NCBI GenBank assembly: GCA_038888615.1
Contig: JAWAID010000002.1
Coordinates: 1-64,000, forward strand
Origin: Candidatus Korarchaeum sp.
GTDB lineage: Archaea; Korarchaeota; Korarchaeia; Korarchaeales; Korarchaeaceae
DNA length: 64,000 nt
Direction: 5' to 3'
The notes under the pieces are model-generated. The model searched no databases and was not told the origin of the DNA. It saw only the letters and a program-made list of their open reading frames with translations. The position numbers and the translations under genes were made by a program. Shown here piece by piece: positions 12,829 to 49,493 of the stretch (positions are counted from its first letter, which is position 1; each line of letters begins with the position of its first letter).

Positions 12829-12865
12829 GGCCACGATTAGCGAAGGATAGGAGACCTAGCTCCCT

Positions 12866-13017
12866 AAGGTGGATGGGCTTTGAGCCCTCTTGGGCTCCCA
12901 CACCACCTTAAAGGTGTGCCAATAGGTTAACCACCTCCACGAGAGTGGGTGTGAGCTCGCTTGATTCTAGGTATCGCGTCGCACCGAACATGCAGAGTGC
13001 TCTGAAAGAAGCCCCTC
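12866..13017 (+). other. Inverted-repeat-rich segment, possible structured RNA or element end
   Basis: After the acyl-CoA gene comes a GC-rich stretch without an ORF. It contains an outer inverted repeat AAGGTGG/CCACCTT (12866-12872 and 12903-12909) enclosing nested pairs (GGGCTTTGAGCCC and AGCCCTCTTGGGCT), then CCAC...GTGG (12931-12946), and ends with GCAGAGT...AAGCCCCTC. The last two motifs recur in the same order at 45357-45405. It abuts the truncated TnpB-derived element. It may be a TnpB right end/omega-RNA remnant of another subfamily; this is weakly supported. Confidence 0.3.
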
Positions 13018-13326
13018 GCAGCGGCTTCAAAATAGATAGATTTGAATAGACATGGAGGGGCCGTCGAGTGCGGTGGTCCTCAACCCTACGAGCAGAAGGT
13101 GCTTCAGATGTGGGAAGATCAATGCCCCGAAAGGAGCTACGGGTTGAGGATAGGCAGCTAAATGCTGCCGTAAATCTTTACCTTCAGATGGAGGATCTTT
13201 CTCCGAGCCCTAAGCTCTTTGAGGAGCTTATGGCTCGGAGCGGGTTCACCCTGACGGGGACCTCAGACTTGGGGGATGGTGAGTCCCAAGAGCTACGCAA
13301 GTCTATAGGACTACGTAGCTCAGAAC
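13013..13326 (+). mobile_element. Truncated TnpB-derived (IS200/IS605-type) element, copy A
   Basis: A ~314-bp segment matching copy B (46145-46443, minus strand) from the left flank CCCTCGCAGCG to the right-end motif AGCTCAGAAC. It keeps only the 3' part of a tnpB gene: the zinc-finger start (NPTSRRCFRCGKINAPKGA), DRQLNAAVNLYLQMEDLSP and ARSGFTLTG. Compared with the longer TnpB at 48.25 kb it lacks all upstream coding sequence and ~16-18 bp within the zinc finger; copy B has the same small deletion. The frame is interrupted, so it encodes no working protein. Best read as a non-autonomous derivative or an omega-RNA-bearing remnant. Confidence 0.7.
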
Positions 13327-13374
13327 TCCAAGGGTTACTAATCCCCCATCTGAGGGAATTTTAACTGTAACCCC

Positions 13375-45405: not shown

Positions 45406-46034
45406 TAAATGACTTTGAAGAGCCTCACATAAGTGATAGGGCTCAGTTCAGTGACGCTCCCCTCGTCCACTGACGTCACTAATATCCCGTTTAACTTAGC
45501 CCTCCTGAGGATCTCGAGCGGTATGGGGGGGTTCGTGTAGTAGACATCGAGGAGGGACTTCCACCTCATCAGCTCGGATTCGATCCTCTCCTCAGGCGGT
45601 AGTAGTACGAAGCGAGGTATCTCCATCAGGTATGTCGGGGGAGCAGCAAGGTAGAACTCATCGGAGTTGATGCTATACCTAGCTATCTTGCTGGCTATCC
45701 TGGCCCTGCAGAAGCTATCAGGATCTAAAGCGTGCTCCGGAGGGACGTAGCCCGTTTCCACCTCCACTATCACCTTAGATCCTTTCAAGCAGAGGAGGTC
45801 GCACTTGAGGTCGTCTATGGGTACCTCCACATCCACCTCGTAACCCCTGGCTATGAAGTGAGCTGCGACTACGATCTCCATCGCTGAGTGGTTTATCTTG
45901 ACTAAACCTTTCCTATGGAGGTCAACGAGCTTATCTATGAGTGGATCCAGCTTCTCCCTCGCTACTACGCCCCTCTCATCAAGCCTAGTAGCTAGTTTCC
46001 TCAGATCGGATCTGAAGACCCTTTCGTTCGGCAC
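45405..46034 (-). CDS. Predicted nuclease-like protein of the restriction-endonuclease fold
   Basis: A 209-residue conserved-looking protein. The core DVEVPIDDLKCDLLCLKGSK followed by VIVEVETGYVPPEHALDP fits the D-x(n)-E-x-E pattern of PD-(D/E)xK-type nucleases, with VEVET in place of the usual ExK. I start it at GTG 46034, ~25 bp from a TATA-like AAAAAG box (46053-46062); the longer frame to 46388 is a chance fusion with the TnpB-derived copy B. Its stop touches the candidate RNA. Function unknown. Confidence 0.6.
   Translation of the reverse strand: MPNERVFRSDLRKLATRLDERGVVAREKLDPLIDKLVDLHRKGLVKINHSAMEIVVAAHFIARGYEVDVEVPIDDLKCDLLCLKGSKVIVEVETGYVPPEHALDPDSFCRARIASKIARYSINSDEFYLAAPPTYLMEIPRFVLLPPEERIESELMRWKSLLDVYYTNPPIPLEILRRAKLNGILVTSVDEGSVTELSPITYVRLFKVI
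45609..45648 (+). repeat. Source copy of a 40-bp exact duplication (inside the nuclease-like gene)
   Basis: This 40-bp stretch of the nuclease-like gene is found again, base for base and in the same orientation, at 46561-46600, in the spacer before pyk. Confidence 0.9.
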
Positions 46035-46144
46035 TTTGGAGCGATGATATAATAGCTTTTTAGTTTTGCTAGACCGCAACCCATCTCTAGGAGCAGAGTG
46101 GGTGAACCGTGCTATCCCAAGTCGTATGGGGAAGTGACGTAGAG

Positions 46145-46443
46145 GTTCTGAGCTACGTAGTCCTATAGACTCGCGTAGCCCTTGGGGCTCATCAGCCTCT
46201 TTATCATCGGCCCCCGTCAGGGTGAACCCGCTCCGAGCCATCAGCTCTAAAGAGCCTAGGGCTTGGAGAAAGACCCTCCATCCGAAGGAAGGCAGCGTTA
46301 AGCTGCCCATCCTCAACCCGCATAGCTCCTTTCGGGCATTGATCTTCCAGCATCTGGAGCATCTTTTACTCGTAGGGTTGAGGATCACCTCGACAGCCCC
46401 CCATGTTCACTCAAATCTATCCATTTTGAAGTCGCTGCGAGGG
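46145..46443 (-). mobile_element. Truncated TnpB-derived (IS200/IS605-type) element, copy B
   Basis: On the minus strand, ~299 bp homologous to copy A (13013-13326) from the CCCTCGCAGCG flank to the right-end motif AGCTCAGAAC. It keeps the 3' TnpB part (NPTSKRCSRCWKIN; ARSGFTLTG) with the same small zinc-finger deletion as copy A plus further losses. It points toward the nuclease-like gene and ends in front of its promoter. Confidence 0.7.
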
Positions 46444-46453
46444 CGGCATGATA

Positions 46454-46650: not shown

Positions 46651-48057
46651 ATGCAAAGGACGAGGATAGTAGCCACAATAGGACCCTCATCCTCAAACAT
46701 GGATGTCCTTAGGGGGATGATAGCTGAAGGGATGAACGTAGCTAGGCTGAACTTCTCCCACGGAACGCTAAGCGAGAAAGCGGAGCAGATAGATCTCATT
46801 AGAACTGCTTCAAGCGAGCTAGGAGTTAGAGTAGGGCTAATGTCCGACCTCCAGGGGCCGGAGGTAAGGACGCACATGGGTAGGAAGGAGCTGAAGGTGG
46901 AGGAAGGGGACTTAGTCACTGTTAGTGGGAAAGAGGGGATTGGGGAGGTGAAGATAAAGCCCTCCAGCGTTCTGAGGTCCCTAGAGTCCGATGATGAGCT
47001 TTTCATCGATGGAGGCAAGGTGAGGTTCAGGGTGAGGGAGGTCCGCGATGACCTCTTGGTATGCGAGGTGCTCCAGGGAGGGGTCGTGAGGGACAAGAGG
47101 TCCGTTCATGCATCGAAGCCCTTTGACATCAGAGGCCTTACTGAGGAGGATAAGGAGGCGATAAAGCTGTCGATAACTAAGGGGGTCGATTTCATAGCTC
47201 TGTCCTTCGTCAAGTCGGCTGATGACGTAGCTGAGGCGAGGAGGTTCATGGACTCCCTCACGGACGATCCCCCAGCGATAATATCTAAGATAGAGACCAG
47301 AGAAGCTGTTGAGAAGATAAATGAGATCTTAGAAGAATCATATGGGATAATGGTCGCTAGAGGTGACTTAGGAGTCGGTATGCCCCTTCAAGAAGTGCCT
47401 AAAGTTCAGAAAAAACTGATAAGGCTTGCGAATACCTATGCTAAGCCTGTGATAACGGCCACTGAGATGCTGGAATCCATGGTGTCGAGCCCCGTCCCGA
47501 CGAGAGCCGAGGTAACCGATGTATACAACGCGATCCTAGATGGGAGCGACGCCGTAATGCTCTCAGCTGAGACCGCTGTCGGTAACTACCCTATCCTAAG
47601 CGTGAGGTGGATGAGGATGATCTGCGAGGCCGCTGAAGGCTCTTTAGATATAAGGTTGGATTTCCCAGTTGATAGCATACCTTCCCTCATTGGAAGAGCT
47701 GCTGTAGAAGCCTCAGAAGCTCTGAAGTGCCCCGTGATCCTCTGCTTCACCTACTCAGGATACACAGCGAGGCACGTAGCTAGGCATAGGCCTAAAGCTA
47801 GGGTCATAGCCCTAAGCAGCGATCCGAGGACGAGCAGGCTCTTAACGCTCACCTGGGGGATTGAGGTCTTGGATGTGAGCTTGAACACGGAGAAAGCCAT
47901 CGAGGAGGCATTGATGTACTGCCTGAAGAATAATCTGGTCTCGGAGGACGATAAGGTGGTCATAACCTACGGCCACCCACACGGTAGGGCGAAGACGAAC
48001 ACGCTGAGGGTACATGGGGTGAGTGAGTTACTTAGCGATGAGCTCCCCGGGACATAA
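46651..48057 (+). CDS. pyk: Pyruvate kinase
   Basis: A 468-residue glycolytic enzyme: TRIVATIGPSSSNMDVLRGM at the N-terminus, MNVARLNFSHG, SDLQGPEVRT, the active-site ISKIETREAVEKINEI and MVARGDLGVGMPLQEVPKVQ, then ATEMLESM and SDAVMLSAETAVGNYP, and a complete C-terminal domain (CFTYSGYTARHVARHRPKAR). ATG at 46651. A 51-bp piece of its own coding sequence is duplicated 570 bp upstream. Confidence 0.95.
   Translation: MQRTRIVATIGPSSSNMDVLRGMIAEGMNVARLNFSHGTLSEKAEQIDLIRTASSELGVRVGLMSDLQGPEVRTHMGRKELKVEEGDLVTVSGKEGIGEVKIKPSSVLRSLESDDELFIDGGKVRFRVREVRDDLLVCEVLQGGVVRDKRSVHASKPFDIRGLTEEDKEAIKLSITKGVDFIALSFVKSADDVAEARRFMDSLTDDPPAIISKIETREAVEKINEILEESYGIMVARGDLGVGMPLQEVPKVQKKLIRLANTYAKPVITATEMLESMVSSPVPTRAEVTDVYNAILDGSDAVMLSAETAVGNYPILSVRWMRMICEAAEGSLDIRLDFPVDSIPSLIGRAAVEASEALKCPVILCFTYSGYTARHVARHRPKARVIALSSDPRTSRLLTLTWGIEVLDVSLNTEKAIEEALMYCLKNNLVSEDDKVVITYGHPHGRAKTNTLRVHGVSELLSDELPGT
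47023..47073 (+). repeat. Source segment of the displaced pyk fragment
   Basis: Segment inside the pyk B-domain region that is copied, with four mismatches, at 46454-46504. Confidence 0.85.
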
Positions 48058-48251
48058 ACTCATGCTCCTCATGGTTTAAGCCCATAGATCCCATTTAGCG
48101 ATCTCAACGTTGATCCCCGATGGGAGTAGATCCGAAGGTACGCCCCTCACGATGCCGTCACCAGCAGTTCCAAGATAGGTAGGTCTAAGTATAGAAATGA
48201 GGAGTAGATGTGGGATAATTTTTTTAATGAGATGAGGCGTTAGGAAGCTGA

Positions 48252-49488
48252 ATGCTAAGTCATAGCACTAAGCGAGTGCCAGCGAGCTATAGGGCTTACA
48301 ACATCAAGCACAGCTACGATATCTCAGAGTTCCTTGAGGATTATAGACTGCTGCTTCAGAGGGCTTTAGATGAGATATGGGCTGCGATCAGGTGGAAACA
48401 TGATGGACGCAACCCAGCAGTAAATCCAAATAATACCGAAAAGCAATGAGTTCAAGAAGCAGCTGAGAGATAGATTGATGGAGGATTGGGGCTACTCGAA
48501 GCATTACGTTGACTCAGCCATAAGGGAGGCTTACAGCCTTCTGAAGTCCTGGAGGAGGAACTATAGAAAGGGGAGAAGAAAGGGGAAGCCCGTTGTAAAG
48601 AAAAGGTTCGTTAGGGTGAAGGGAACGCTTTACAGCTTCAGGGAGGGGAAAATAAAGATTAGTATAAGGCCTTTCAAGGAATATTTGGTTTTCGATATCT
48701 CGAGGGCCTGGTTCTCGAGGAGGGTGAAGGGTGGAGAGCTGGGAGAGCTCATACTGAGGGAAGAGTACCTAACGATAACCTTCAAGTTCAAAAGAAGAGA
48801 GGAGGAAGCGGTTGGGAAGATAGCATGGGACTGCAATTTGAAAAGTTAGACGGCTTCAATCCGAAGCTGGGGTGGATCAGGATCGATTTAGGAAAGCTCC
48901 TTCATATCCACAGGGTCTATGAGCTCAAGAGGAAGAGGCTGCAGTCTAAGGTATTGAGGAAGCCCTCCCTCAGAGAAGTTTTGGCCAAGTACTCGAGGAG
49001 GGAGAGGAACAGGGCTAAAGACTTCGTTCACAAGCTGACCACTTCCCTATCTAGGGAGTATAAAGGCTATATACATGGCTTCGAAAATTTGAGGAAGGAT
49101 AAGATGTTCAGAAGGGGAAAGAAAGCGAGAAAGCATAATAGGAAAGTTGCTAAGAGCGATTGGAAGATCATACAGTCTCTTATGTCATATAAGTCGAGGG
49201 TTGTGTTCCTCAACCCCAAGGATACGAGTAGGAGGTGCTCCAGATGTGGGATGGTAAATGCCCCGAAAGGAGCGATTTACAAATGCAGATGCGGGTTGAG
49301 GATGGATAGGCAGCTTAACGCTGCCGTAAATTTGTACCTTCAGATGGAGGGTCTTTCCCCGAGCCCTAGGCTCTTCGAGGGGCTTATGGCTTGGAGTGGG
49401 TTCGCCCTGACGGGGGAGGAGGCCTCAGGTCTAGAGGCTGGTGAGTCCCAAGGGCTAAATGGATACTTATCCGTACTTAGCTCAGAAC
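48252..49488 (+). pseudogene. tnpB: TnpB (IS200/IS605 OrfB) pseudogene, frameshifted
   Basis: A near full-length TnpB split over three frames: N-terminal 48252-48449 (YNIKHSYDISEFLEDYRLLL), middle 48475-48849 (EAYSLLKSWRRNYRKGRRKG) ending in GKIAWDCNLKS, and C-terminal from about 48846 (DGFNPKLGWIRIDLGKLLHI; HGFENLRKDKMF; CSRCGMVNAPKG with CRCG; DRQLNAAVNLYLQMEG). A one-base loss near 48848 (AAAAGTTAGAC) breaks the first RuvC block; another shift lies near 48440. The third RuvC position reads DRQLN where many TnpBs have DRDxN. The homology ends at AGCTCAGAAC (49479-49488), 5 bp before the pyrC stop codon. Confidence 0.85.
49479..49488 (+). other. TnpB right-end motif, shared with copies A and B
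   Basis: AGCTCAGAAC is also at 13317-13326 (+) and 46145-46154 (-). Sequence similarity among the three loci stops directly after it, so it marks the element boundary; in TnpB systems the guide part of omega-RNA starts there. Confidence 0.6.
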
Positions 49489-49493
49489 CCTTC

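Follow-up and report, generated by a model that had tools for sequence, protein, structure and literature searches.

Copy A and copy B, two related stretches of about 300 bp in the genome of Candidatus Korarchaeum sp. (GenBank assembly GCA_038888615.1), are very probably miniature elements of MITE-like, non-autonomous type that derive from an IS607-type transposon of archaea. An IS607-type serine recombinase has probably mobilised them in trans, inserting them after GCC without further duplication. Both lie in the window, i.e. the 64,000-nucleotide stretch of DNA analysed here (contig JAWAID010000002.1, positions 1 to 64,000). The assignment follows from four observations: the ends that A and B have in common with many other copies, an element with matching ends that bears tnpA, the empty site of a tnpB-only copy (L007) and the gene junction at a short copy (L016).

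Results

The first-pass annotation had described A and B as two related copies of about 300 bp with the same ends, which is borne out by their alignment (316 columns, 82.6% identity, E = 9e-84; for coordinates see Table 1). Their 500-bp flanks are unrelated, with a single 11-base word in common, and hence there is no larger segmental duplication around the two copies. The right tip of copy A is degenerate and reads AGAACTC where AGAACCC is expected. Its tnpB remnant is matched in two frames by the intact TnpB of L159, from Candidatus Methanomethylicota (tblastn), and the terminal hairpin of its right-end module is formed by GAGCTACG...CGTAGCTC. Copy B is 95% identical over its full length to L002 (C2:581913-582209), which lies in unrelated genomic surroundings. 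This is the closest pair in the family; copy A is only about 83% identical to both members, and most of the family is therefore old.

Table 1. Positions and properties of the elements and their parts. Coordinates without a contig prefix refer to the window.
Feature	Position	Strand	Description
Copy A	13014-13328	+	315-bp non-autonomous IS607-type element, subfamily 1; ends set from the whole family
Copy A, left junction	13011..13013	+	GCC (target/core sequence), as precedes family elements
Copy A, tnpB 3' coding-end remnant	13078..13240	+	Zinc finger broken, second CxxC deleted; limits approximate
Copy A, right-end RNA-like module	13250..13328	+	Covariance model 73.6 bits (A in training set); hairpin fold
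Copy B	46143-46441	-	299-bp non-autonomous element, subfamily 1
Copy B, left junction	46442..46444	-	GCC; flank is GCCGCC, boundary ambiguous by 3 bp
Copy B, right-end RNA-like module	46143..46221	-	Covariance model 86.7 bits (B in training set)
tnpB-only relative	48157-49490	+	Both family ends; tnpB frameshifted, tnpA absent
Class i: IS607-type element	C1:465948-467755		The one element with a transposase gene; intact serine recombinase TnpA gene, broken tnpB; ends match family
Class ii: tnpB-only copies			About 1.2-1.4 kb; same family ends; includes 48157-49490
Class iii: short copies			About 280-355 bp; three types
Short copies, subfamily 1			A, B, L002, L004, L006, L013, probably L005
Short copies, subfamily 2			L011, L014, L016, L017, L020, L021
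Short copies, third type			L078, L079; made from the tnpA-bearing element itself

Copy A is separated from the upstream gene by about 185-188 bp (12829-13013), a stretch that is unique in the genome and thus stands outside the repeat. At the equivalent position the sequence in relatives is either just a few bp long or unrelated, and by eye the stretch contains an inverted repeat, AAGGTGG...CCACCTT. Beside copy B, 46438-46508 matches 47007-47078 within the neighbouring gene (86%), and 46555-46600 matches 45603-45648 (96%). To judge by their letters, these two duplicated stretches look like templated filler DNA; they are the only repeats outside the TnpB family listed in a self-comparison of the window.

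Searching the whole genome (1.67 Mb in two contigs, C1 and C2) with copy A, a check proposed in the first-pass annotation, gave 28 matched stretches, and many of the additional copies have both ends. In total, related sequence is found at about 30 places, of which about 20 are miniature elements. A mobile non-autonomous element, spread by the copying of a short unit, had been suggested from A and B alone and agrees with these data, as the short copies are multiple, lack a transposase gene and share the same two ends between unrelated flanks; the contrary case, just two copies within a larger segmental duplication, is at odds with both the number of places and the unrelated flanks of A and B. 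When the copies are aligned together with their flanks, identity ends at the same two points and the sequences beyond are unrelated. Hereby, the left end consists of GCC, the boundary, four to five variable bases (N4-5) and CAGCAGTTYCAAAATAGATA, and the right end is TAGCYCAGAACCC, directly followed by the boundary. GCC directly precedes 21 of the 22 tabulated elements; in the single exception, L019, the boundary was misplaced by the script, and the left end of this element also reads GCC. Nearly all copies show GCC on the left and CC on the right. With one mismatch allowed, the right-end pattern TTAGCYCAGAACMC occurs at 31 places, mostly in members of the family, compared to 0 for the reversed control pattern. 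Inspected by eye, the tips of the elements show only a short imperfect resemblance; IS607 elements have been described as being without terminal inverted repeats (PMC6188088).

Besides the type represented by A and B, two more miniature types exist, with different internal deletions and the same ends. One 130-bp copy contains little beyond both tips, its right end being reduced to the hairpin part; directly at its right end a degenerate copy starts (L098). Within the genus, a DNA search with copy A revealed one further copy, in genome G012. Right-end remnants with an unrecognised left end are present at L085, L088, L099, C2:479685-479764 and C2:505807-505866 and are probably older copies. Part of the left flank of L013 (C2:544532-544677) is 94% identical to C2:576820-576943, about 430 bp from the short copy L020, and this match is perhaps a repeated small gene.

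With the tnpB copy at 48157-49490 as reference, A and B are missing one and the same block around the second CxxC of the zinc finger. The first-pass annotation had noted this joint deletion and derived the copying of a short unit from it. The observation stands, but the deletion is no hallmark of the pair: a gap of 16-18 bp, identical or nearly so, is also found in L002, L011, L014, L016, L017, L020 and L021, so that at least nine copies from both subfamily 1 and subfamily 2 have it, and is therefore not specific to A and B. The gap was inherited through a copied unit, and the proof of mobility rests on the common ends and the empty sites, not on this inherited deletion.

The tnpB-only copy L007 has an empty site in the relative G005, reading CACCCGAGCC^TCCTGAGGG, and the filled site in the present genome reads CACCCACGCC-element-TCCTGAGAG. 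Hence the empty site comprises a single GCC and the right flank, no bases having been gained or lost. The short copy L016 splits a gene for which Pfam returned no named family. Here, the left flank through GCC and the right flank past AGAACCC together form an open frame, and the protein obtained on removal of L016 is gapless across the junction (AMGVDALIA^FPMGYLYD versus AMASDAAIALPAGIIYD); its homologues in other archaea have about 390 residues. Both sites are consistent with an insertion after GCC and otherwise no gain or loss. GG (CC) at both ends and in the target, without further target duplication, corresponds to the pattern of the IS607 family (PMC6188088). For the copy A locus a clean empty site was not found in relatives, where a few bp or unrelated sequence lie between the flanking genes, and for copy B none was found. 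L021 was considered as well and rejected: joining its flanks yields an open frame, but the DNA alignment to the relative is poor at the junction.

A TnpA that could act in trans, as the first-pass annotation had advised looking for, has a candidate in the tnpA-bearing element of class i (tnpA at about C1:466011-466605), whose two ends (GCCTTCTCAGCAGTTTCAAAATAGATA on the left, TTAGCTTGGAACCC on the right) match those of the short copies. According to Pfam, this TnpA comprises HTH_17/MerR (residues 5-53) followed by Resolvase (residues 60-189), which is the IS607 domain order, and the candidate is thus an IS607-type serine recombinase and not a Y1 transposase. It is the single matching recombinase left in the genome. 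Homologues with 82-83% identity come from genomes labelled as Nitrososphaeria and Bathyarchaeota. Several elements of other archaea carry the family left end upstream of their tnpA, and four have the family right end downstream of their tnpB. Downstream of the resident tnpA, tnpB homology is scattered over several frames. An intact TnpB was not found among the tnpB copies examined in this genome, all of which are frameshifted or truncated; in the tnpB-only relative in the window, Pfam detects Cas12f1-like_TNB at 48663-49487. The tnpB genes of the tnpB-only copies are closest to L159, mostly with 50-75% identity by segment, and the tnpB remnants of subfamily 1, including those of A and B, are likewise closest to the L159 element, whereas L131 has the nearest relative of the tnpB in the resident tnpA-bearing element. 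Given this difference in kinship, and the ACG-type right-end hairpin of subfamily 1, the resident element may not be the direct parent of the short copies, and the true mobiliser may be a lost parent instead.

The guide RNA of TnpB is encoded at the right end of the element and continues into the adjoining DNA. TnpB makes its guide RNA by processing its own mRNA (PMC10278001). Of the right end, the main miniature types keep roughly 140-250 bp, and of the left end only about 50-90 bp. A covariance model of the right end yields 38 matches in this genome, five of which are antisense echoes of the palindromic hairpin, as well as matches in nine other genomes, 61 genomes having been searched. Two sequence types of the terminal hairpin occur, the ACG-type being that of subfamily 1. 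Pairing of each hairpin with its own arms is more favourable (-17.2 kcal/mol) than pairing with exchanged arms (-13.3), and not one of 20000 permutations was as good; in addition, RNAalifold identifies two base pairs with changes on both sides. Hereby, the pairing signal arises mostly between the hairpin types and is weak within them (0.02 and 0.15). An Rfam search of six loci gave chance matches only, and the right end matches no Rfam family. The covarying terminal hairpin is compatible with a structured RNA in ancestral elements, and the right end retained in the short copies probably represents the omega-RNA region of the parent.

Discussion

From the left end of the transposon A and B retain about 50 bp, and from the right end about 250 bp, which comprise the 3' end of tnpB and the structured region downstream of it; tnpA and most of tnpB are lost. 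According to the proposed mechanism, TnpA, an IS607-type serine recombinase, would pair both ends in trans, strand exchange would take place at a CC dinucleotide (GG on the opposite strand) and the element would land after a GCC target. CC is hereby the presumed crossover core, and the mover would be the resident TnpA or a lost close relative.

Other origins of the short copies have to be weighed against this mechanism. That A and B are products of a larger chromosomal segment duplication has next to no chance of being correct; the flanks of A and B are unrelated, and the copies all cease to resemble one another beyond the same two points. Full-length tnpB copies in this genome are indeed decayed, so that the short copies could be conceived as remnants of such genes that decayed independently, yet the transposon left end is fused directly to tnpB 3' sequence, with junctions common within subfamilies, B and L002 are nearly identical over their full length at unrelated places, and the zinc-finger deletion recurs in at least nine copies, all of which renders this origin extremely improbable. 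Very unlikely, too, is a derivation from IS200/IS605 elements moved by a Y1 transposase, as for haloarchaeal PATEs. TnpB is present in both transposon families and the near-terminal hairpin is like that of IS605-type ends, but no IS200/IS605 Y1 transposase exceeds the Pfam cut-off in this genome (best Y1_Tnp match with E = 0.28), and both the matching-end element and its relatives in other archaea carry a serine recombinase.

Alternatively, the short copies might be maintained as stand-alone omega-RNA genes, with the adjoining host DNA as guide and TnpB supplied in trans. The longer retention of the right end in the main miniature types, the better pairing of own arms with its two compensatory pairs and the recurrence of the right-end module in other genomes speak for such a role, which we nevertheless consider unlikely: every tnpB copy examined here is broken, the 130-bp copy manages with just the hairpin part, the pairing signal comes mainly from the comparison between hairpin types, and retention of the right end is equally expected if TnpA must bind it. 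Still more doubtful is the idea that the short copies are portable guide-RNA cassettes under selection, whereby the empty donor site would be cut by an intact TnpB, either one present in other cells or one that this lineage formerly possessed, and the element would be restored. If true, the short copies would parasitise TnpA as well as TnpB.

As non-autonomous IS607-type derivatives, A and B belong to a kind of element that is already known, since IS607-linked MITEs of Staphylothermus and PATEs of Haloquadratum have been published. In Staphylothermus marinus, a single two-ORF IS607 element is accompanied by four one-ORF copies and by 14 non-autonomous copies of ~260 nt, and two of these short copies disrupt genes (PMC2678158). 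Compared by description, both archaeal genomes thus combine an IS607 element with one-ORF and short copies; however, the Staphylothermus MITEs resemble the region upstream of the ORF, whereas the Korarchaeum short copies join the left tip to a long right end that includes the 3' end of tnpB. The PATEs of Haloquadratum walsbyi are likewise short and transposase-free, some having arisen by internal deletion of TnpB-carrying transposons (PMC3119063), but they are IS605-type, in contrast to the present family with its serine recombinase-bearing element of matching ends and its GCC target. In IS607, IS1535 and ISC1926, TnpA consists of an N-terminal DNA-binding and a serine recombinase domain, and insertion occurs at GG without target duplication (PMC6188088). 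The Korarchaeum family agrees in TnpA domain order, GG/CC dinucleotide and lack of target duplication; it differs in that the target is GCC on the tnpA/tnpB strand (GGC on the other) and in that most copies are without tnpA. IS607 TnpBs with RAGATH-18-derived guide RNAs, which recognise the target motifs AGGAG or GAGGG (PMC11061315), are similar insofar as a guide RNA is encoded beside an IS607-type tnpB, but in Korarchaeum the adjoining sequence is GCC and the right end is without an Rfam match.

In conclusion, the family is documented here in a little-studied archaeal lineage, down to its exact ends and empty sites, alongside its probable mobiliser. With the retained right ends one can ask whether non-autonomous IS607 elements need a TnpB guide RNA to be retained, in addition to TnpA for their movement.
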